Position numbers and translations under genes: made by a program
Notes under the pieces: model-generated
Databases searched by the model: none
What the model saw: the letters and a program-made list of their open reading frames with translations, nothing else
Told to the model about the DNA's origin: nothing
Shown: positions 4,070-62,536 of the stretch, piece by piece
Layout: each line of letters opens with the position of its first letter
How positions within the stretch are numbered: the first letter of the stretch is position 1
DNA from: Deroplatys truncata
Lineage: Eukaryota > Arthropoda > Insecta > Mantodea > Mantidae
NCBI GenBank assembly: GCA_030765065.1
Contig: CM060978.1
Coordinates: forward strand, 54,030,421 to 54,094,420
Reading direction: 5' to 3'
Length of the DNA stretch: 64,000 nt

Positions 4070-4904
4070 ACTTTCTCTACTACGTATAGTAAGCAGGGGA
4101 AGTATTGTATTCCACTCAAAAATTTGATACCGAGATTTCACCGGAAATACATGTTTTGAGACCTCCTGAATACAAAAAAAAAGCATTTTTGGAAACATGT
4201 CCGTGTGTGTCTGTGTGTGTCTGTGAACAGCATAACTCAGAAACGAACAATTGGATAAACACCGAACTTGGTATTTAGGTTCAGTATCTTCCAGAGATGC
4301 GACACGAAGGTTTTTAAGAAAGTTCCCCAACCCCAGACTACCTTTTACATGGAAAATTTTTCGAAAATGTTTATTTTCTCAAAAATGGCTCTAACGATGT
4401 TCATTAAAATATCATATGTTTAAGATATTTTCATGACAATCGAAATCTATATCTCGAATTCTCTGGGAATGTCTCCAAAAGTATTCTTCATTGTGAACGA
4501 CTTTTGCATAACTGGTAAACCATAAGAGATAGACAAAATTTTACTACAGAAAAAATGTAGATCGTCTTAAAATACACAATTTATGTCATATACATTTTTA
4601 TTGTTGGGTGAACAATTTTCGAGATTGCTTGTTATTCCCTTAAATTTTCCAATACTTGTACTTTTTCTCAAATTCGTTATTCATTTTTTGTCCTGGTAAT
4701 GCAAAGAGAATGGAATACTCCACATAGCAACCGGCTCTTAAAAGATTTGACTATCGCTTAAATACTACCATATTCCCCTTGTACCTACAAGAAAATTAGC
4801 AATAAGATTAATATCTCGATTAGCATGAAGCATATGGAGAATAAGCGTTTGTAAAAATAGTTTGTACAAGAGTAGAGAAAGTCATGTGAGTGTAACACAT
4901 CAGA
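4070..4904 (+). mobile_element. H-A copy, full length
   Basis: Starts ACTTTCTCTACT and ends AGTAGAGAAAGT followed by the CATGTG...CACAT hairpin and CAGA. Inserted in H-B just after 'ttactaaatcttatt'; a second H-A at 23061 sits at the same H-B position. Confidence 0.9.
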
Positions 4905-8480: not shown

Positions 8481-8529
8481 TTGAGTTGGACAGAAAAGAA
8501 ATAAGGAAAGCAGTTGCATTAATTGAAAC

Positions 8530-9070
8530 CTAATCAGAGCCTTCAACCCAATACAGACACACCTCCGCCTCATCCAGCAATGGTGCCGGCGTTGGCGCAT
8601 GTCCGTTAACGCGGACAAGAGCCACGCCATGCTTCTAACGAAGCGCCACATCCCCACAGACTGCCCCACATTTCAATTTCGAGGCCGAAGGATTGAATGG
8701 AGGAATTCTATAACCTACCTGGGAGTGAAGTTGGATAAAGGTCTAACTTTCCGCGAACACATCCGAGACGTCTCGACCCGGGCGCAGGGGGCGATTGCCT
8801 CCTTGTACCCGATGCTGAGTTCGCTTAAAGCTACACCTTTTCCGAGCTTTGATAATCCCACTAATGCTATACGCCTGAGAGTTCTGGGACATGGGCACAG
8901 ACAGCTGGCTGCTATGGCTACAACGGGCGCAGAATAGGGGTCTCCTTCCCCATGAGACTACTACACGAAGCATCATCTCTTCCATATGTTGAAGATGAAA
9001 TTAGGCGCCGGGCTACTAAATTTTACGCCAGTTTACCAAACCATCAGAGTATCCTGGGGATTACAACCTA
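8530..9070 (+). pseudogene. Jockey-like non-LTR reverse transcriptase, C-terminal part
   Basis: The frame from 8599 reads CRRWRMSVNADKSHAML, then FQFRGRRIEW, ITYLGVKLDKGLTFREHI and a TRAQGAIASLYPMLS segment: the block after the YADD motif through the thumb of a jockey-clade RT. The frame is lost near 8840; a later frame reads VEDEIRRRATKFYASLPNHQ before a stop at 9069, typical of the end of such an ORF2. The catalytic YADD itself is upstream and not recognisable. Base composition is GC-richer than the neighbouring H repeats. A dead 5'-truncated LINE. Confidence 0.8.
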
Positions 9071-9600: not shown

Positions 9601-9997
9601 ATGGCCCTTTCTACAACCAGAAAAGAACTAGGAAAGGATGCTGGTATTGGAACCAAAATACAGCAACTCATTTAGGGAACAGATTTTGGGAAACAATGAA
9701 GGCATGTTTTCCCATGGAATTGCACAATAAACCTTTTAGGCTAACGTGCAGGAGGTCAATAAAATTACAACAAAATATTCCCCCCCCCCCGTTATCTACT
9801 CTAACCAGACAGAGTATGGATCCAGAGGACTTCGCAAGACCCAGATTAAGATAGGAGGATGGAATGGAACAGGAGAGTAAAACTCTGGGGGTAAGAAATT
9901 GGAAGCAATTAGCAAGAAATAGATATCCATCTAAGGAAAGTCAGGGGCCGCACTGGGCTGTAGAGCCCAGTGATGACGATGATGACAACGACTTTTT
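9601..9997. other. Unassigned sequence with poly-C run
   Basis: Possible 3' end of the LINE relic. A C homopolymer at 9780-9790 is the only local feature. The frame starting at 9864 runs into the next H-A copy and is not a gene. Confidence 0.3.
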
Positions 9998-10812
9998 ACT
10001 TTCTCTACTACGTATAGTAAGTAGGGGAAGTATTGTACTCCACCCAACAATTCGATACCGAGATTTCACCGGAAATACATGTTTTGAGACCCCTGAATCC
10101 AAAAAAAAACGTTTTTTGGAAACGTCCGGGTGTGTGTCTGTCTGTCTGTGAACAGCATAACTCAGAAACGAACTGTCGGATAAACACCAAACTTGGTATT
10201 TAGGTTCAGTATCTTCCAGAGATGCGACACGAAGGTTTTCAAGAAAATCCTCCCACCCCAGATTACCCTTACCATGGAAAATTTTTAAAAAAATTTAATT
10301 TTCTCAAAACTGGCTGTAACGATTTTGATTAACATATCATATGTTTTTGATATTTTCATGACAAATGAAATGTATATCTCGAATTCTCTGAAAATGCCTC
10401 CAAAATTGTTCTTCATTGTGAACGACCATAAGAGATAGACAAAATTTTACTACACAAAAAATGTAGATCACGTTAAAATACACAATTTATGTCATATACA
10501 TTTTTTTGTTGAGTGACCCATTTTCGAGATATTGCTTGTTATTCCCTCAAATTTTCCAATACTTTTACTTTTTCTCAAATTCCTTATTCATTTTTTATGT
10601 CCTGGACATACAAAGAGAATGGAATACTCCACATAGCAAACAGGTCTTAAAATATTTGACTATCGCTTAAAGCCTATCAATTCCCCTTGCATCAACAAGA
10701 AAATTAGGAATAAGATTAACATCTCAATTAACATGGAGCATATGGAGAATAAGCGTTTGTAAAAATAGTTTGTACAAGAGTACAGAAAGTCATGTGACTG
10801 TAAACACATCAA
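9998..10812 (+). mobile_element. H-A copy, full length (reference description)
   Basis: Order from the H end: ACTTTCTCTACT, hairpin ctactacgtatagtaagtag, 'attccaccca', 'tcaccggaaatacatg', a short GT/GTCT tract, 'gaacagcataactcag', 'aacaccaaacttggtattta', 'gcgacacgaaggttttcaag', 'accctttac(atgg)aa', 'gattttgatta', 'aaatgtagatc', 'ttcgttattcattttt', 'tgcaaagagaatgg', 'tgactatcgcttaaag', 'gagaataagcgtttgtaaaa', the subterminal repeat (here one base changed), the terminal hairpin and ATCAAA. T runs flank both ends. No protein motif and no long frame; a non-autonomous element. Confidence 0.9.
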
Positions 10813-11360
10813 ATTTTTCTACTATTTAGAATACTGTTGTATTCCACCCAAAAATTTGATATTAAGGTTTCACCGTAAATACATATTTTGAGTTCCACTG
10901 AATCAAAAAAGTTGTATTTATAGAAGAAGGTCAATGTATGTCTAAACAGTATAAAATAAAAACAAGCCAGTTAAATACCACATCGCATCTTCAAAGAATA
11001 CGCCAAGATGATTTTCAAGAAAATCCCTCCACCTCAACTATCCCTCACATGCAAAACCCTTTTTTTTATTTTATCAAAACTGGCTTACGATTTTGATTAA
11101 AACACCGAGTTATGTTTAATACATTTTACTGACAAATAAAATTTACCTATATCTTAAGTTTTCTGTGAATACCCTGTATTTCTTAATGAATTACGTACAC
11201 TTTTGTTTAACTGATAAAGCATAAGAGAGACTAAAATTTATTACACAAAATAATTTAGATCTGGTTAAAGCACACAATTTTTGTGCAATGTTTAGAAACC
11301 ATTTCTGCAACAAATCGTCGTTATTGGTTTGAAGTTTGCAATAACGTATCATAATGTTTA
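10813..11360 (+). mobile_element. Diverged H copy, 3'-truncated
   Basis: Plus order from 'ctactatttagaatactg' through 'tcaccgtaaatacat', a degraded GT zone without a tract, and the 'cgatttt gattaaaac' block; ends where another H copy begins. Older than its neighbours by divergence. Confidence 0.65.
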
Positions 11361-12211: not shown

Positions 12212-13154
12212 ACTTTCTCTACTACGTATAGTAAGTAGGGAAGTATTGTATTCCACCCAAAAATTCGATACCGAGATTTCACCGGAAATATATCTTTTGA
12301 GACCCCCTGAATCCAAAAAAAGCATTTTTGGAAACATATCCGTGTGCGTGTCTGTGTGTGTGTGTGTGTGTGTGTCTGTTAACAGCATAAATCAGAAACG
12401 AACAGTCGGATAAACACCAAACTTGGTATTTTGGTTCAGTATCTTCCAGAAATGCGACACGAAGGTTTTCAAGAAAATCCCTCCAACCCAGATTACCCTT
12501 TACATGGAACATTTTTGGAAAATTTTAATTTTCTCAAAAATAGCTCTAACGATTTTCATTAAAATATCATATGTTTAAGATATTTTCATGACAAATAAAA
12601 TGTATAACTTGAATTTTCTGGGAATGTCTCCAAAAGTATTCTTCATTGTGAACGACTTTTGCGTAACTGGTAAACCATAAGAGATAGACAAAATTTTACT
12701 ACAAAAAAAATGTAGATCGCGTAAGATACACCTTTTATGTCATATACATTTTTTTTGTTGAGTGAACCATATTCGAGATATTGCTTGTTATTCCCTTAAA
12801 TTTTTCAATACTTAATTTCTCAAATGGCAATTTGTTATTCATTTTTTGTCTTGCATATGCAAAGTGAATTAATCTGTCGCAAACGGAATGGTGCTGCACA
12901 TAGCAACCAGCTATTAAGAAATGAGTCTGTGCCTATATTACCGTTGCAAAATCAAAATAAGGGGAACATGGCCTTAAGCGATAGTCAAATATTTTTGAAC
13001 TGGTCGCTATGAGTAAAATGTAATTCTCTTTGCATGTCAAAAGATGGTTTCTGCAAATGTTTATCTCGATTAATATGAAATAGATGGAGAATAAGCGTTT
13101 GTAAAAATAGTTTGTACAAGAGTAGAGAAAATCATGTGAATGTAACACATCAGA
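12212..13154 (+). mobile_element. H-A copy, full length
   Basis: Perfect ACTTTCTCTACT start, GT/GTCT tract at 12343-12377, and an extra block near 12860-13010 (atctgtcgcaaacgg ... tactcataac) shared with the copies at 16039 and 42240, marking a longer H-A variant. Ends gtaacacatcaga plus T run. Confidence 0.85.
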
Positions 13155-29773: not shown

Positions 29774-30655
29774 TCTGATGTGTTACACTCACATGACTTT
29801 CTCTACTCTTGTACAAACTATTTTTACAAACGCTTATTCTCCATCTACTTCATGTTAATCGAGATAAACATTTGCAGACTATCTTATTGCTAATTTTCTT
29901 GCAGATGTAAGGGGAAAATATATTTACAAGGGCAATATAGAAATACAGTAGCCTTTAAGCACATACATATCTCTTAATACCTGGTTGCTAGGTGCAGCAC
30001 TATTCCCTTTGCCACAGATTAATACTCTTTGCATATCCAAAACAAAAAAATGAATAACGAATTCCCATTTAAGAATATAAATATTGAAACATTTAAGGGA
30101 ATAACAAGCAATATCTCGAAAATGGTTCACTCAACAACAAAAAATGTATATGACATAAATTATGTATTTTATCGGATCTACATTTTTGTGTAGTAAAATT
30201 TTGTCTATCTCTTATGGTTTACCAGTTATGCAAAAGTCGTTCACAATGAAGAATACTTTTGGAGAAATTCCCAGAAAATTCAAGATATACATTTTATTTG
30301 TCATGAAAATATCTTAAACATAGGATATTTTAATTAAAATCGTTAGAGCCATTTTTGAGAAAATTAAAATTTTCGAAAAATCTTCCATGTAAAGGGTAAT
30401 CTGAGGTGGGGGATTTTCTTGAAAACCTTCGTGTCGCATCTCTGGAAGATACTAAACTTAAATACCAAGTTTGGTGTTTATCCGACTGTTCGTTTCTGAG
30501 TTATACTGTTCACAGACACACACACGGACATGTTTCCAAAAATGCTTTTTTTGGATTCAGGGGTCTCAAAACATGTATTTCCGGTGAAATCTCGGTATCG
30601 AATTTTTGGGTGGAATACAATACTTCCCCTACTTACTATACGTAGTAGAGAAAGT
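29774..30655 (-). mobile_element. H-A copy, full length
   Basis: TCTGATGTGTTACACTCACA start, ends ACGTAGTAGAGAAAGT; T/A runs on both sides. AC tract is short (cacagacacacacacgg). Confidence 0.92.
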
Positions 30656-33900: not shown

Positions 33901-34768
33901 TCTGATGTGTTACACTCACATGACTTTCCCTACTCTTGTACAAACTATTCTTAGAAACGCTTATTCTCCATATGCTTCATGTTAATCGAGATATCGAGAT
34001 GTTAACCTTATTGCTAATTTTCTTGTAGATGCAAAGGGAATTGGTAGGCTTTAAGCGATAGTCAAATATTTCAAAAGCTGGTTGCTATGTGGAGTATTCC
34101 ATTCTCTTTGCATTACCAGAACAAAAAAACTGAATAATGAATTTGAGAAAAAGTATAAATATTGGAAAATTTAAGGGAATAACAAGCAATATCTCGAAAA
34201 TGGTTCACTCAACAAAAAATGTATATGACATACATTCTGTATTTTAACGCGATCTACATTTTTTGTGTAGTAAAATTTTGTCTATCTCTTATGGTTTACC
34301 AGTTATGCAAAAGTCGTTCACAATGAAGATTTCTTTTGGAGACATTTCCAGAAAATTCGACATATACATTTCATTTGTCATGAAAATATCTTAAACATAT
34401 GATATTTTAATTAAAATCGTTAGAGCCATTTTTGAGAAAATTAAAATTTTCGAGAAATGTTCCATGTAAAGGGCAATCTGGGGTGGGGGGATTTTCTTGA
34501 AAACCTTCGTGTCGCATCTCTGGAACCTACTGAACCTAAATACCAAGTTTGGTATTTATCCGACTGTTCGTTTCTGAGATATGCTGTTCACAGACAGACA
34601 GACACACACACATACACACACACAAACAAACACACGGACATGTTTCCAAAAATGTTTTTTTTTTGGATTCAGGGAGTCCCAAAACATATATTTCCGGTGA
34701 AATCTCGGTATCGAATTTTTGGGTGGAATACAATACTTCCCCTACTTACTATACGTAGTAGAGAAAGT
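33901..34768 (-). mobile_element. H-A copy, full length, first of a composite array
   Basis: TCTGATGTG start, intact H end; directly followed by 'taatagacacattaatatac', the start of a LINE fragment. Confidence 0.92.
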
Positions 34769-35190
34769 AATAATAGACACATTAATATACTTTCCGGTAG
34801 TCAAGTAGCCTATAAGGCTCTTGAACGTAGAGAACTAAATCTAAACTGGTATGGAAAGTATGGAGGCTCTAACAGCATATTCGTGGAGTTGGTGTGGGTG
34901 CCAGGGCACAGAGGAATCATTGGCAATGAAAGAGCAGATATTCTGATGGAGAAATGAGCAGAAAACGCTTTTGTAGGTTCTGAACGTAGGCCCGTTTATC
35001 CTATGGACTAATCCGGGGGGAGCAGGTAATCTGGGAATGGTTTAGGAAGAAACATAATGAGTACTGGAAGTCTTTATCAGAACGCAAGCACACCAAGGTT
35101 CTTATTAAAGGGATAACACAAATAAGGACACAATCACGACTTAAAATTGGTGGAACTGCAGTAAAACAAACAATTGGTCTATTAACGTGG
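34769..35190 (+). pseudogene. LINE RNase H tail, copy 1
   Basis: Reads ILSGSQVAYKALERRELN (RNase H 'SDSQ' region, here SGSQ with the Asp lost), then VELVWVPGHRGIIGNERAD, a stop at 34955, then WEWFRKKHNEYWKSLSE, KVLIKGITQIRTQSRLKIG and GLLTWQS. The fragment is truncated at the H-A H end on the left. The VPGHRG.IGNE.AD motif is characteristic of LINE RNase H. Neighbour copy at 37298 has the same left boundary. Confidence 0.8.
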
Positions 35191-36436: not shown

Positions 36437-37297
36437 TCTGATGTGATATACTCACATGACTTTCTCTACCCTGTTTACTGGTGGGAATACAAATTATTCT
36501 TATTCCAGCTTATTTTTCTATCTACTACATTTTAATACCGCTAAACCTTTGCAGAAATAGCTACATCACACGTTTTAGATACAAAGGGAACAGCGATAGT
36601 CAAATGTTTAAGAACTGGACGCTATATGCTGGCCTTAAAATTCCATACTGTTTCCATGACATCGCGAGAAAAACTGAATCTTGACAGAAGTTAAAGAGAA
36701 TAACCAAGAAATGAACAAATCGAACCTTTAATAACGGATATCTCGGAAACGGCTTATGCCACAAAAAGAAAGTTATTTGATATACATTATATATTTTAAA
36801 GAGTCTACACATTTTGTGTAGTACACTTTCGTCTATCGCTTAACGTTTAGCAGTTATACAAGATTATATAAAATGCCTTCCGAATGAAGAGAACTTCGGA
36901 GGCTGTTCCCAAAAGTTCAAAATATTTGTAATCTAAATATCTTTAATATATGATATTTTAATCAAAATCGTTTGAGCCATTTTTTAGAAAATAACAAATT
37001 TCGAAAAATTTTTCGTGTAAAAAAGTCTGGTAAAAAGGGATTTTCTGAAAATGTTCGTGTTGTATCTTTGGACGATACCGAACCTAAATACCAAGTTTGG
37101 TGTTTTTAGTGTTTATATGACTATAGTTTTGAGTTAGGCTGTTCAACGACGTATACACACGGACCTTTTCCTAAAAATTATTTTTTTTTTGGCTTCAGGA
37201 GGCCTCAAAACATGTATTTCCGGTGACATCTCCGTAGAGAATTTTTGGGTGGAATGCAATACCTTCTCTACCTGCTAAATACGTGTTAAATAAAGCA
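36437..37297 (-). mobile_element. H-B copy, full length (reference for H-B)
   Basis: T end tctgatgtgatatactcaca then tgactttctc; blocks specific to H-B: 'actggacgctatatgctgg', 'ccttaaaattccatactg', 'atgacatcgcgagaaa', 'cgtctatcgcttaacg', 'gaatgaagagaacttcgg'. H end mutated (acgtgttaaataaagc). Shares with H-A the terminal repeats, the 'ccaagtttggtg' and 'tttccggtga' blocks and the microsatellite position. Confidence 0.88.
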
Positions 37298-37600
37298 AAA
37301 ATAGACACATTACTATACTTTCCGATATTCAATCAGTCCTAATGGCTCTTGAGGGTAGGAGACCAAATCGTAAGTGCCTGAGATTGTATGGAGGCTCTAA
37401 GTAGTGACCCTACGCAATTCAGGGGAGTTAGTGTGGGTGCCAGGGCATAGAGGGATCCATGACAATGAAAGAGCAGGTGATATGGCGAAGAAAGGAGCAG
37501 AGAGTCCTTTTGTGGGTCCTGTACCTAGACTCGGGCTATCCTATGGACTAATGGGGGGGGGGGTAATCTGTGAATGGATCAGGATAAATGAGGCAGTATT
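37298..37600 (+). pseudogene. LINE RNase H tail, copy 2
   Basis: Starts 'atagacacattactatactttcc' as in copy 1, with frames carrying ELVWVPGHRGIHDNERAGD and AKKGAESPFVGPVPRL. An internal deletion joins 'gtgaatggatc' to 'aatgaggcagtattt'. Several frameshifts. Confidence 0.8.
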
Positions 37601-43880: not shown

Positions 43881-43888
43881 AAAAAAAT

Positions 43889-44700
43889 ATGTGTTACACT
43901 CACACGAGTTTCTCTACTCTTGTACAAACTATTCTTACAAACGCTTACTCACCATATGCTTCATGTTAATAGAGATATCGAGATGTTAATCTTATTGCTA
44001 ATTTTCTTGTAGATGCAAGGGGAATTGGTAGCCTTTAAGCTATAGTCAAATATTTTATGAGCTGGTTGCTATGTGTAGTATTGCATTCTCTTTGCATTAC
44101 CAGTACAAAAAATTAAAATCCATAAAGTATTTTGAAAATCTAAGAGAATAACAAGCAATATCTCTAAAATGGTTCACTCAACAAAAAAAAATGTATATGA
44201 CATAAACTGTGTATTTTAACGCAATCTACATTTTTTGTGTAGTAAACGTTTGTTTATCTCTTATGGTTTACCAGTTATGCAAAAGTCGTTCACAGTGAAG
44301 AATACTTTTGGAGACATTCCCAGAAAATTCGAGATATACACTTCATTTGTCATGAAAATATCTTAAACATATGATATTTTAATCAGAATCGGTAGAACCA
44401 TTTTTGAGAACATTAAAATTTTAGAAAAATGTTCCATGTAAAGGGTAATCTGGGTTGGGGATTTTCTTGAAAACCTTCGTGTCGCATCTCTGGAAGATAC
44501 TGAACCTAAATACCAAGTTTGGTGTTTATCCGACTGTTCGTTTCTGAGTTATACTGTTCAACACACACGGACATGTTTCCAAAAATGCTTTTTTTTTGGA
44601 TTCAGGAAGTCTCAAAACATATATTTCCGGTGAAATCTCGGTATCGAAATTTTGGGTGGAATACAATACTTCCCCTACTTACTATACGTAGTAGAGAAAG
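43889..44700 (-). mobile_element. H-A copy, near full length
   Basis: T end slightly mutated (atatgtgttacactcacacg), complete interior, intact H end. AC tract reduced to caacacacacgg. Confidence 0.9.
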
Positions 44701-44704
44701 AAAA

Positions 44705-45457
44705 AAGAATCTGTGATACATATACATGACATAAAATTAAAGATAAACTTTTGCAGAAACAGTTACATTAGACACTTCGTTATAGATACAAAGAGAACAG
44801 CGATAGTCAAATGTTTAAGAACTGGACGCCATATGCTGGCCTTAAAATTCCATACTGTTTGCATGCAATCGCCAGAAACAACTGAATGTTGACATGACCA
44901 AGAAATGCATAATTCGAAACATTAATAAGGATATCTGAGAAAAGGCTTATGCCACAGAAAAACTTGTTCGAAATAAATTATGTGTCTTAAAGACATCTAC
45001 ATTTCTTCTTTAATGAATTTCTGTCTATTGCTTAATCTTTACAAGTTATACAGGATTATACAAAATTCCTTCCAAACGAACAGGACTTAATAGGCTATTT
45101 CCAGAAAATTCAACATCTACAGTTTATTTATGATATAAATATTTTCATAGATAGTTTTTTAATCAAAATCGTTAGTAATTTTTTGGAAAATTTGAAAAAT
45201 ATTCCATGTAAAGGGTATTTTGTGTGGGAACTTTCTTGAAAATCTTCGTGTCGTATCTTTGAAAGATACTGAATCTAAGTAGCAAGATAAGTATTTTTCC
45301 GACTTTCGTTTTCCAGTTGTATGCTCACACACACATTTTTCTAAAAACCCTTTATCTGGATTCAGGGGGCCTCAAAACATTTCCGATGAAATATCGACAA
45401 AGAATTTTTGGGTGGAATGCATTACCTTCTCTACCATGTACTAGGCAGAGAAAGTAA
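44705..45457 (-). mobile_element. H-B copy
   Basis: T end damaged (tctgtgatacatatacatgac), H-B interior in order, H end 'taccatgtactaggcagagaaagt' retains the terminal repeat. Confidence 0.85.
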
Positions 45458-48079: not shown

Positions 48080-48919
48080 TCTGAAGTGTTACACTCATAT
48101 GACTTTCTCTACTCTTGTACAAACTATTTATACAAACGCTTATTCTCCATCTATTTCATGTTAATCGAGATATTGAGATGTTAATCTTATTGCTAATTTT
48201 CTGTAGATGCAAGCGGAATTTGTAGGCTTTAAGCTATGGTCAAATATATTAAGAGCTGGTTAGCTGGTTGCTATGTAGAGTATTCCATTCTCCTTGCATT
48301 ATCAGGACAAAACTAATGAATAACGAATTTGAGAAAAAGTATAAGTATTGCAAAATTTAAGGGAATAACAAGCAATATCTCGAAAATGGTTCACTCAACA
48401 AAAAAAATGTATATGACATAAGTTGTGTATTTTAACGCGATCTACATTTTTGTGTAGTAAAATTTTGTTTGTCTCGTATGGTTTACTAGTTATGCAAAAG
48501 CCGTTCACAATGAAGAATACTTTTGAAGACTTTCCCAGAAAATTCGAGATATACATATCATTTGCCATAAAAATATCTTAAACATATGATATTTTAATCA
48601 AAATCGTTAGAGCCGTTTTTGAGAAAATTTTCGAAAAATTTTCCATGTAAAGAGTAATCTGGGGTGGGGGAATTTTCTTGAAAACCTTCGTGTCGCATCT
48701 CTGGAAGATACTGAACCTAAATACCAAGTTTGGTGTTTATCCGACTGTTCGTTTCTGAGTTATGCTGTTCACAGACGCACACACACACGGACATGTTTCC
48801 AAAAATGCTTTTTTTGGATTCAGGGGGTCTCAAAACATGTATTTCCGGAGAAATCTCGGTATCGAATTTTTGGGTGGAATACAATACTTCCCCTGCTTAC
48901 TATACGTAGTAGAGAAAGT
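48080..48919 (-). mobile_element. H-A copy, full length
   Basis: T end tctgaagtgttacactcata, H end intact. Inserted in the 47046 element, therefore younger than it. Confidence 0.92.
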
Positions 48920-49899: not shown

Positions 49900-51135
49900 C
49901 ACTATGTGATCAAAGGTATCCGGACACACCCACAAACATACGTTTTTCATCTTAGGTGCTTTGTGCTGCCACCCTACTGCATTGTACTCATTATCCGCGA
50001 CCTCAGTAGTCATTAGACATCGTGAAACAGCAGAATGGGACGCTCCGTGGAACTCGAACGTGGTCAGGTGATTGGGTGTCACTTGTATCAGAAGTCTGTA
50101 CGCGAGATTTCCACACTCCTAAACATCCCTAGGTCCACTGTTTCTGATGTGATAGTTAAGTGGAAACGTGAAGGGACATGTACAGCACAAAAGCGTACAG
50201 GCCGACCTCGTCTGTTGACTGACAGAGACCGCCGACATTTGAAGAGGGTCGTAAAGAGTAATAGGCAGACATCTATCCAGACCATCACACAAGAATTCCA
50301 AAGTTCATCACGATCCACTCCAAGTACTATGACAGGCGTGAGGTGAGAAACCTTGGATTCCATGGTCGAGCGACTGCTCATAAGCCACACATCACGCATG
50401 AAAATGCCAAACAACGCCTCGCTTGGTGTAAGGAGCGTCAACATTACACGATTGAACAGTGGCAAAACGTTGTGTGGAGTGACGAATCACGGTACATAAT
50501 GTGGCGATCCGATGGCAGGGTGTGGGTATGGTGAATGCCCGGTGAACGTCATCTGCCAGCGTGTGTAGTGCCAACAGTTAAATTCGGAGGTGGTGGTGTT
50601 ATGGTGTGATCGTGTTTTTCCTGGAGGTGGCTTGCAGCCCTTGTTGTTTTGGGTGGCACGATCACAGCGCAGACCTACATTGATATTTTAAGCACCTTCT
50701 TGCTTCCCACTGTTGAAAAACAATTCGGGGATGACGATTGCATCTTTCAACACGATCGAGCACCTGTTCATACTGCACGGGCTGTGGCGGAGTGGTTACA
50801 CGACAATAACATCCCTGTAATAGACTGGTCTGCACAGAGTCCTGACTTGAATCCTATAGAACACCTTTGGGATGTTTTGGAACGCCGACCTCATGCCAGG
50901 CCTCACCGACCGGCATCGATACCTCTCCTCAGTTCCGCATTCCGTGAAGAATGGGCTGCCATTCCCCAAGAAACCCTCCAGCACCTGATTGAAAGTATGC
51001 CTGCGAGAGTGAACGCTGTCATCAAGGCTAAGGGTGGGTCAACACCATACTGACTTCCAGCATTACCGATGGAGGGCGCCACGAACTTTTACGTCATTTT
51101 CAGCCAGGTGTCCGGATACTTTTGATCACGTAGTG
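49900..51135 (+). mobile_element. Tc1-type DNA transposon, near complete
   Basis: 1,236 bp. Terminal inverted repeats of about 29 bp with two mismatches (CACTATGTGATCAAAGGTAT / CACTACGTGATCAAAAGTAT), TA duplications at 49898-49899 and 51136-51137. Encodes a decayed transposase on the plus strand. Sits in a minus-strand LINE. Confidence 0.95.
50035..51053 (+). pseudogene. Tc1 transposase (DD34E), inactivated
   Basis: The protein would bind the terminal repeats and cut and paste the element. Residues 1-100 from ATG 50035 include a helix-turn-helix (VREISTLLNIPRSTVSDVI, about 22-40) and GRPR at 56-59. The frame shifts near 50310-50335; the second frame carries WSDES (first catalytic Asp), then stops at 50532-50534 (expected Arg) and 50607-50609 (expected Trp). 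The last part has FQHDRAPVH (second Asp), SPDLNPIEHLW (Glu) and ends KAKGGSTPY. The second Asp to Glu spacing is exactly 34. One frameshift plus two nonsense changes; overall length is normal for the family. Confidence 0.95.
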
Positions 51136-54486: not shown

Positions 54487-55371
54487 ACTTTCTCTACTAC
54501 GTATAGTAAGTAGGGGAAGTATTGCATTCCACCCAAAAATTCGATACCGAGATTTCACCGGAAATACATGTTTTGAGACCTCCTGAATCCAAAAAAAGCA
54601 TTTTTGGAAACATGTCCGTGTGTGTGTCTGTGTGTCTGTGTGTGTGTGTGTCTGTGTGTGTGTCTGTGTGTGTGTGAACAGCATAACTCAAAAACGAACA
54701 GTCGGATAAACACCAAACTTGGTATTTAGGTTCAGTATCTTCCAGAGATGCGACACGAAGGTTTTCAAGAAAATCCCCCCACCCCAGACTACCCTTTACA
54801 TGGAACATTTTTCGAAAATTTTAATTTTCTCAAAAATGGCTCTAACGATTTTGATTAAAATATCATATGTTTAAGATAACGTCATGAGAAATGAAATGTA
54901 TATCTCGAATTTTCTGGGAATGTCTCCAAAAGTATTCTTCATTGTGAACGACTTTTGCATAACTGGTAAACCATAAGAGATAGACAAATTTTTACTACAC
55001 AAAAAATGTAGATCTCGTTAAAATACACAACTTATGTCATATACATTTCTTTTGTTGAGTGAACCGTTTTCGAGATATTGCTTGTTATTCCCTTAAATTT
55101 TCCAATACTTATACTTTTTCTCAAATTCGTTATTCATTTTTTATGTCCTGGACTTGCAAAGAGAATGGAATGCGCCGCATAGCAACCAGCGTTAAAATAT
55201 TTGACCATCGCTTAAAAGCTACCATATTCCCCTTGCATCTACAAGAAAAATACCAATAAGTTTGACATCTCGATATCTCGATTAACATAAAGCATATGGA
55301 GAATAGGCGTTTGTAAAAATAGATTGTACAAGAGTAGAGAAAGTCATGTGAGTGTAACACATCAGATTTTT
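54487..55371 (+). mobile_element. H-A copy, full length, nested in H-A
   Basis: Perfect ACTTTCTCTACT start, 60-bp GT/GTCT tract, perfect subterminal repeat and terminal hairpin, ending ATCAGA in a T run. One of the best-preserved copies. Confidence 0.93.
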
Positions 55372-57907: not shown

Positions 57908-58620
57908 TCTGATGTGTTACACTCACATGACTTTCTCTATTCTTGTACAAACAATTCTTACAAACGCTTATTCTCCATATGCTTCATGTTAAACGAGATG
58001 TTAAACTTATTGCTAATTTTCCTGTAGATGCAAGGGAAATATGGTAAGCTTTAAGCGATAATCAAATATTTTAAGAGCTGGTAAGTATTGGAAAATTTAA
58101 GGGAATAACAGGCAATATCTCGAAAATGGTTCACTCAACAACAAAAATGTATATGACATAAATTGTGTATTTTAACGCGGTCTACATTTTTGTGTAGTAA
58201 AATTTTGTCTGTCTCTTATGGTTTACCAGTTATTCAAAAGTCGTTCACAATGAAGAACACTTTTGGAGACATTACCAGAAAATTCGAGATATACATTTCA
58301 TTTGTCATAAAAGTATCTTAAAAATATGATATTTTAATCAAAATCGTTAGTCATTTTTAAGAAAATTAAATTTTCGTAAAATGTTTCATGTAAAGGGTAA
58401 TCTGAGGTGGGGGGATTTTCTTGAAAACCTTCGTGTCGCATCTCTGGAAGATACTGAACCTAAATACCAAGTTTGGTGTTTATCCGACTGTTCGTTTCTG
58501 AGTTATGCTGTACAGACACACACACGGACATGTTTCCAAAAATGCTTTTTCTGGATTCAGAGGGTCTCAAAGCATATATTTCTGGTGAAATCTCAGTAAC
58601 GTATACGTAGTAGAGAAAGT
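57908..58620 (-). mobile_element. H-A copy with two deletions
   Basis: T end intact; deletion at 58081 (agctggtaagtattgg) and near the H end (ctcagtaacgtatacgtag); terminal repeat intact. Confidence 0.88.
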
Positions 58621-59533: not shown

Positions 59534-60374
59534 ACTTTCTCTACTACCTATAGTAAGTAGGGGAAGTATTGCATTCCACCCAAAAATTCGATACCGAGAT
59601 TTCACCGGAAATACATGTTTTGAGACCTCCTGAATCCAAAAAAAAGCATTTTTGGAAACATGTCCGTGTGTATGTCTGTGTGTGTGTGTGTGTGAACAGC
59701 ATAACTCAAAAACGAACAGTCGGATAAACACCAAACTTGGTATTTAGGTTCAGTATCTTCCAGAGATGCGACACGAAGGTTTTCAAGAAAATTCCCCCAC
59801 CCCAGACTACCCTTTACATGGAACATTTTTCGAAAATTTTAATTTTCTCAAAAATGGCTAACGATTTTGATGAAAATATCATATGTTTAAGATAATGTCA
59901 TGAGAAATGAAATGTATATCTCGAATTTTCTGGGAATGTCTCCAAAAGTATTCTTCATTGTGAACGACTTTTGCATAACTGGTAAACCATAAGAGATAGA
60001 CAAAATTTTACTACACAAAAAATGTAATCGCATTAAAATACACAACTTAAGTCATATACATTTCTTTTGTTGAGTGAACCGTTTTCGAGATATTGCTTGT
60101 TATTTCCTTAAATTTTCCAATACTTATACTTTTTTCTCAAATTCGTTATTCATTTTTTTTTGTCCTGGACATGCAAAGAGAATGGAATGCGCCACATAGC
60201 AACCAGCGTTAAAATATTTGACTATCGCTCAAAGCCTACCATATTCCCCTTGCATCTACAAGAAAATTAGCAATAAGATTAACATCTCGATTAACATGAA
60301 GCATATGGAGAATAAGCGTTTGTAAAAATAGTTTGTACAAGAGTAGAGAAAGTCATGTGAGTGTAACACATCAG
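59534..60374 (+). mobile_element. H-A copy, full length, nested in H-A
   Basis: Perfect start (one change in the hairpin, ctacctatag), GT tract, complete interior, perfect T end. Confidence 0.92.
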
Positions 60375-60829
60375 ATTTTTTTTTCTTGTCCTGGTAATGC
60401 AAAGAGAATGGAATGCGCCACATAGCAACCGGCTCTTAAAAGATTTGACTATCGCTTAAATACTACCATATTCCCCTTGCATCTACAAGAAAATTAGCAA
60501 TAAGATTAACATCTCAACTAACATGAAGCATATGGAGAATAAGCGTTTGTAAAAATAGTTTGTACAAGAGTAGAGAAAGTCATGTGAGTGTAACACATCA
60601 GATTTTTTTTTCTTGTCCTGGTAATGCAAAGAGAATGGAATGCGCCACATAGCAACCGGCTCTTAAAAGATTTGACTATCGCTTAAAAGCTACCATATTC
60701 CCCTTGCATCTACAAGAAAATTAGCAATAATATTAACATCTCGATTAACATGAACCATATGGAGAATAAGCGTTTGTAAAAATAGTTTGTACAAGAGTAG
60801 AGAAAGTCATGTGAGTGTAACACATCAGA
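60375..60829 (+). repeat. Two further H-A 3' modules in tandem
   Basis: Two ~228-bp units (about 60379-60606 and 60607-60829), each from 'cttgtcctggtaatgcaaag' to ATCAGA plus T run, following the same module of the full copy. They are almost identical to each other (differences include tactacc/gctacc and aactaa/gattaa). Confidence 0.9.
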
Positions 60830-61722: not shown

Positions 61723-62536
61723 ACTTTCTCTACTACGTATAGTAATTAGGGCAAGTATTGCATTCTATCCAAAAATTTGGTATCGATATTTCATTGGAAA
61801 TACATGTTTCGAGTTACCCTGGATCCTAAAAAGCATTTTTAGAAAAAGGTCCGTGCGTGTGTCAAAAACGAAATTCGGAAAAAATACCAAACTTGGTATT
61901 TAGGTTCAATATTCTTCAAAGATGTTACAGGAAGGTTTTCAAGAAAATCCCCCACCCCAGACTACCCTTTACATGGAACATTTTTCAAAAAATCTTAATT
62001 TTCCCCACAAATGGCTCTAACGATATGGATTAAAATATCGTGCTTAGGATATTTTCTTGGCCAATGAAATGTATATCTTGAATTTTCTGGGAATGTCCCC
62101 AAAAGTTCTCTTCATTCTGAATACCTTTTGCATAACTGGTGAATCCCTAAGAGATAGACAAAAGTGTACTACACAAAAAATGTAGATCTCGCTAAAACAC
62201 ACAATTTATGTCATATACATTTTTCGTGTAATGAATCATTTCCGAGATATTCCTTGTTATTTGTTTGCATTTTGCAATACTGATACTTTTTCTCAAATGG
62301 GAATTTGTTATTCGTTTTTTTATGTCTGGACATACAAAGAGAATGGAATACTCCACATAGCAACTAGCTCTTAAAATATTTGACTATAGCTTAAAGCGTA
62401 CCAATTCCCCTTGCACCTACAAGAAAATTAGCAATAAGATTAACATCTCGATTAACATGAAGCATATGGAGAATAAGCGTTTGTAAAAATAGTTTGTACA
62501 AGAGTAGAGAAAGTCATGTGAGTGTAACACATCAGA
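61723..62536 (+). mobile_element. H-A copy, full length
   Basis: Perfect start and end, with only a minimal GT tract (gtgcgtgtgtc). Inserted in a T run of H-B. Confidence 0.92.

Follow-up and report, generated by a model that had tools for sequence, protein, structure and literature searches.

The repeat family H of the mantis Deroplatys truncata is very probably a family of non-autonomous Helentron-associated interspersed elements (HINEs) with the architecture of DINE-1. DINE-1 is a fruit-fly repeat that is thought to copy by a rolling-circle mechanism. The assignment of H is based on its subTIRs, an inner inverted repeat at the 5' end, a GTCY-type tract, a 3' stem, insertion at T-rich (WTT) sites and the lack of coding sequence. 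Every structural feature of the HINE/DINE-1 layout that was tested was found in H, in agreement with the first-pass annotation of the window, which is the whole 64,000-base stretch of DNA analyzed here.

H is abundant in the window. The 5' repeat ACTTTCTCTACT, with at most one mismatch, is found 45 times in the 64,000 bases, compared to a mean of 0.46 and a maximum of 4 in 100 dinucleotide shuffles, and the family is therefore real. Longer queries identified 22 5' ends (24-nt query, up to 6 mismatches) and 29 3' ends (34-nt query, up to 9 mismatches, with 4 of the 29 at this limit), and five first-order Markov simulations of the window contained no match to either query. The ends first described as "about two dozen" thus exist, but their number is approximately twice that. 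H-A and H-B-like queries (E ≤ 1e-5) match 29,087 of the 64,000 window bases (45%), close to the half estimated previously, and one shuffled window had no match to the H queries at 1e-3. An H-A consensus, whose construction the first-pass annotation had suggested, was derived from eight genomic copies, including the named copy of the window (L001). This 820-bp consensus alone covers 25,009 window bases, and its identity to near-full H copies is 80-94% for 14 of the 16. The genome is composed of 4,289,915,091 bases in 818 contigs. A search of this genome with the named copy returned 9,422 first-look candidates; 40 of these were scored, resulting in 43 matches, so the copy number of H is a lower bound. 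Viral contigs and prokaryote genome contigs yielded 0 and 0 matches to the H 3' end. The copies in the window and the parts of the named copy are listed in Table 1.

Table 1. Positions of H copies and of H features in the window
Feature	Position	Strand	Evidence or detail
Named full-length H-A copy	9998..10813	+	93.8% to consensus positions 1-818 (consensus includes this copy)
TTTTT next to the 5' repeat, either a tail of the element or target sequence	9993..9997	+	TTTTT 17, TTATT 7 of 31 5' ends
5' subTIR ACTTTCTCTACT	9998..10009	+	
Inner inverted repeat AGTAGGGGAAGT, pairs with 5' subTIR	10020..10031	+	Fold and pairing
GT/GTCT tract	10130..10150	+	Equivalent place in 15/16 near-full copies
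3' subTIR, here AGTACAGAAAGT, one change from AGTAGAGAAAGT	10779..10790	+	
3' stem ATGTG...CACAT	10792..10809	+	89.1% of 129 cells paired
Near-full H-A copy	4070..4904	+	91.5% to consensus
H-A copy, both ends, interior rearranged	12212..13154	+	Consensus match and end search
Near-full H-A copy	29774..30655	-	84.0% to consensus
Near-full H-A copy	33901..34768	-	90.4% to consensus
H-B-like copy, 3' subTIR GGTAGAGAAAGT	36437..37337	-	5' part H-A-like, tail different
Near-full H-A copy	43885..44701	-	87.5% to consensus
H-B-like copy, 5' arms ACTTTCTCTGCC / GGTAGAGAAGGT	44702..45455	-	
Near-full H-A copy	48080..48919	-	89.6% to consensus
Full H-A copy nested in the T run of a second H (first empty site)	54487..55366	+	
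H-A copy, both ends, interior shortened	57908..58620	-	Consensus match and end search
Full H-A copy nested in the T run of a second H (second empty site)	59534..60375	+	
Tandem pair of 227-bp units, both with a T run followed by H consensus 599-820	60376..60602, 60603..60829	+	
Near-full H-A copy	61723..62536	+	83.1% to consensus

H is approximately 820 bp in length. On the 5' side the order is (TTWTT), ACTTTCTCTACT, 10 nt and AGTAGGGGAAGT. The inner inverted repeat, absent from the earlier description, pairs with ACTTTCTCTACT over 12 bp that include two G.T pairs. The fold of this repeat pair has a z of -2.44, and 7 of 200 shuffles are equally good. The stem is paired in 90.0% of 240 cells. 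In H-B-like arms the innermost pair is C-G in place of T-A, which applies to 3 of the 20 distinct sequences. In 15 of 16 near-full copies the start of the GT/GTCT tract falls within element positions 131-145, and in the remaining one it falls at 158; the place of the tract, first described as fixed, is thus nearly constant. On the 3' side, the subTIR AGTAGAGAAAGT, the counterpart of ACTTTCTCTACT, is internal and is separated from the 3' end by 22 nt (CATGTGAGTGTAACACATCAGA) that contain the 5-bp stem ATGTG/CACAT and the terminal ATCAGA, after which T's follow. This arrangement is as first described; the named copy itself ends in CAAA in place of CAGA at 10810-10813.

The 3' stem is paired in 89.1% of 129 cells in 26 ends, versus 6-57% when the arms are slid. 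No compensatory change on both sides was found among these 26 ends, and folded by itself the stem does not exceed shuffled sequence in stability (88 of 200 shuffles fold equally well). Covariation was rejected as support for either H stem, because neither exceeds the shuffles. The selections of 28 and 26 ends were chosen by hand, and identical 3' ends were thinned in the set of 26. The named copy was left out of both selections as well as of the 21 full copies and the 31 5' ends considered below, and was included among the sequences searched for nested empty sites.

H does not appear to encode a protein. Twelve near-full window copies contain no reading frame longer than 108 aa, and the six window frames overlapping H copies have no Pfam match over the cut-off. 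Among nine window frames compared to Pfam, one exceeded the cut-off, a Tc1-like DDE_3 transposase fragment at 50610-51053 (E 2.7e-10). Two other coding remnants are below the cut-off: a reverse-transcriptase-like fragment at 8527-8937 (RVT_1, E 1.9e-5) and an RNase H-like scrap at ~34880-34950 (E 3.5e-4), just outside of the H copy at 33901-34768.

The insertion sites of H are rich in T. All 22 5' ends have A or T at position -3, and T occupies position -2 in 19 of them and position -1 in 18. The five bases that precede 31 5' ends are TTTTT in 17, TTATT in 7 and another sequence in 7. Because TTWTT precedes 24 of these 31 ends, the element may extend beyond the 5' repeat, which casts doubt on the earlier placement of this repeat at the extreme 5' end. 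A 5' T run of at least three is present in 15 of 21 full copies and is exactly five long in 13, compared to 10% of T runs of this kind in the window background, while the 3' run ranges from 0 to 10 in the same copies. T runs on both sides, as first described, are therefore usual at the 5' end and variable at the 3' end. Since the 5' run is usually exactly five and the 3' run is spread, TTWTT belongs to the element or reflects a tight choice of target.

Empty sites are provided by H copies that are nested in other H copies. Two such sites were found among the matches listed, both within the run of T's close to position 600 of the consensus, and both place the insertion among T's, as had been proposed. 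The filled sites contain 12 T's (5+7) at 54487 and 11 (2+9) at 59534, and 23 unfilled H sites, which were picked by eye with two changed sites (L003 and window 3579) left out, contain 5-9 T's with a mode of 7. In the two empty sites the target thus gained only T's (~4-5 net), and the alignment revealed no other target duplication, including any non-T duplication of 2-10 bp. The flanks of the 21 full copies agree: 5-mers with at least two non-T bases are shared between flanks in 2 of 21 copies, versus a shuffled mean of 1.6. The first-pass claim that no target duplication is visible therefore holds beyond the T's.

The net gain of T's at the two filled sites, together with the inverted repeats of H, could be explained by a cut-and-paste MITE with subterminal inverted repeats and a T-only target duplication (TT up to TTTTT), a reading that was formerly held for DINE-1, according to PMC2374699. 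We consider this improbable for H. The 3' repeat lies 22 nt inside of the end, and no non-T duplication accompanies the element in the two empty sites, a combination that departs from DDE-type MITEs. A T run that stays close to five bases at the 5' end and varies over 0-10 at the 3' end is unlike a duplication, and ATT, which ends the 5' flank in 5 of 21 full copies, begins the 3' flank in 0 of those 5. Furthermore, the Tc1-like fragment is the sole DDE match in the three non-H window frames scanned.

The genome encodes a candidate source of the HINE machinery. PF14214, the Rep family, has 152 matches in the genome and none in 14 control genomes. Among the matches listed, at least 18 are in frames of ≥2,000 aa (counted by hand; 5 of the 18 belong to the ten loci whose motif was read). 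These ten loci (L029-L038) have similar scores and are 96.1-99.3% identical over ~3.5 kb. In the Rep motif, an S between G and P is a sign of a Helentron (PMC4067079). All ten loci have GSPH and read VEFQMRGSPHEH, and the motif is visible in 13 of the 20 other Rep loci, all 13 of which have GL, the Helitron sign. Judged by this motif, the genes at L029-L038 are of the Helentron type. The piece at L030 matches Helitron_like_N and DUF6570 in Pfam. Several frames at L029-L038 exceed 2,000 aa, and their N-terminal part is composed of repeated charged units. Examples of the long Helentron-type Rep frames are those of G000:C4:193702201-193702776 (minus strand) and G000:C9:66068003-66068578 (plus strand). 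The partial Rep of L030 has no relative in the PDB at 1e-3, and helicase and endonuclease domains were not seen in the Rep loci, taken as pieces of ~3.5 kb. The window itself has no similarity to Rep at 0.01 with L030 and L009 as queries. The Helentron-type Rep genes are likely the candidate helper class for H. Identity among the ten Rep loci is 96.1-99.3%, compared to 80-94% between 14 of 16 near-full H copies and the H-A consensus. H is thus older than this Rep group, and it may have been moved by a different and earlier helper.

The 13 loci with the GL motif also raise the possibility that H is moved by a canonical Helitron family of the same genome and not by Helentrons. At L018 (1154-1950), H positions 1-332 are in fact fused to a Rep fragment of this kind, on the opposite strand. 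The locus was considered as a Rep gene with the 5' end of H in front of it, and this was rejected. The H and Rep pieces are each truncated where they meet, and the Rep piece shares 94-96% identity with other Helitron loci, so that L018 looks like a rearranged relic. Canonical Helitrons have 5'-TC and CTRR-3' ends and an A|T site (PMC4778049), none of which are found in H, with its (TTWTT)ACTTTC and ATCAGA ends; they also lack inverted repeats, which H has in its subTIRs. Movement of H by such Helitrons is thus very unlikely. The idea of a SINE-like retroelement with a T-rich tail, which draws on the T run after most 3' ends, is scarcely credible, because T's are present on both sides in the same strand, no duplication flanks the element, and ARAGORN detected no tRNA genes in the window.

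The HINE assignment is consistent with elements of this type in other arthropods. The Drosophila DINE-1/INE-1 elements share with H subTIRs of 12-13 bp and a partial inverted repeat beside the 5' subTIR, and further a GTCY-type tract near the 5' end, a stem-loop after the 3' subTIR, WTT insertion and a lack of coding sequence (PMC2374699, PMC4067079). The likeness is one of architecture. The subTIR letters differ, with ATACCCGTTACTC in D. melanogaster (PMC2374699). DINE-1 also has a central tandem-repeat block, which was not seen in H, and its 3' stem is given as 7-11 nt, compared to 5 bp in H. HINE-Mo of the mite Metaseiulus occidentalis resembles H in being non-coding, with subTIRs of 12-15 bp, a 3' palindrome of 5-10 bp, insertion at T-rich sites that are otherwise unchanged, and a variable number of T's at its ends (PMC4067079). 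Unlike in H, the HINE-Mo subTIRs are palindromic themselves, and the 3' one is 38-60 bp inside of the end, versus 22 nt (34 including the repeat). By description, the (GTCY)n "MITEs" of Lepidoptera are similar to H as non-coding elements with a GTCY microsatellite, and these are counted among DINE-1-like elements in PMC4067079.

The first-pass annotation divided H into two HINE subfamilies, H-A and H-B. By the rule quoted from PMC4067079, a family shares at least 11 identical subTIR bases and a subfamily is at least 80% identical over the last 60 bp. H-A and H-B have 11 subTIR bases in common and are one family under this quoted rule. In those 60 bp nine H-A copies match H-A at 92-100%, and by the same rule H-A is one subfamily. 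Five diverged copies that were taken as H-B-like are 67-75% identical to H-A in this region. Their 5' arms are ACTTTCTCTACC or near, and GGTAGAGAAGGT. The copy at 36437-37337 is 71.1% identical to H-A over positions 2-540 and 91.7% over 785-820, with an unlike stretch between. H-B-like copies are 72-75% identical to each other (two comparisons, last 60 bp), which is below 80%, so H-B does not stand as a single subfamily. Judging from this divergence, H-B is older than H-A and is probably composed of several subfamilies. The original division is thus correct in setting H-A apart as one subfamily and fails for H-B, which is too diverse. As a whole, the first interpretation is sound in its testable HINE/DINE-1 structure and not in its two tidy subfamilies; Helentron-type Rep genes are present in the genome as a putative partner.

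As a HINE, H would be moved by a Rep/helicase protein that is encoded elsewhere in the genome and nicks the 5' end of the element. One strand would be peeled off and copied by rolling-circle replication. The Helitron Helraiser requires its 5' sequence and uses its 3' hairpin as a terminator (PMC4778049). By analogy, the 5' end of H may mark the start of single-strand copying, and the 3' subTIR and stem may provide its stop signal. The single strand would then be joined into a T-rich site, and joining of this kind would leave no duplication from a staggered cut.

The tandem 227-bp units at 60376-60829 are 221/227 identical and directly follow a full H that is nested in another H. Termination bypass has been proposed for tandem Helitrons (PMC4067079), and these tails could be the result of such bypass or of unequal crossing-over between T runs. 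At L006 (612-2327), two full H copies are arranged head to tail with seven T's alone between them. A more far-reaching and rather unlikely reading is that H belongs to a Helentron lineage in which the copied strand carries its own TTWTT 5' tail and is pasted at the edges of genomic T runs, including the one near position 600 of H itself, in which the bare 3' tail can be amplified in tandem, and in which dense self-nested arrays come to occupy a large share of the genome.

Among the Helentron papers listed, no title or beginning of an abstract describes the H family. The architecture and the proposed mechanism have already been published for DINE-1/HINE, and H is a further member of this type. 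If the far-reaching reading were true, self-nested H arrays would constitute a large share of a multi-gigabase genome. Were H as dense throughout the genome as it is in the window, a single DINE-1-like family would be among the main builders of these 4.29 Gb. In that case, the long-frame Helentron-type Rep genes, with ten loci that are 96-99% identical, would be candidate helpers with which to test Helentron movement and the choice of T runs.
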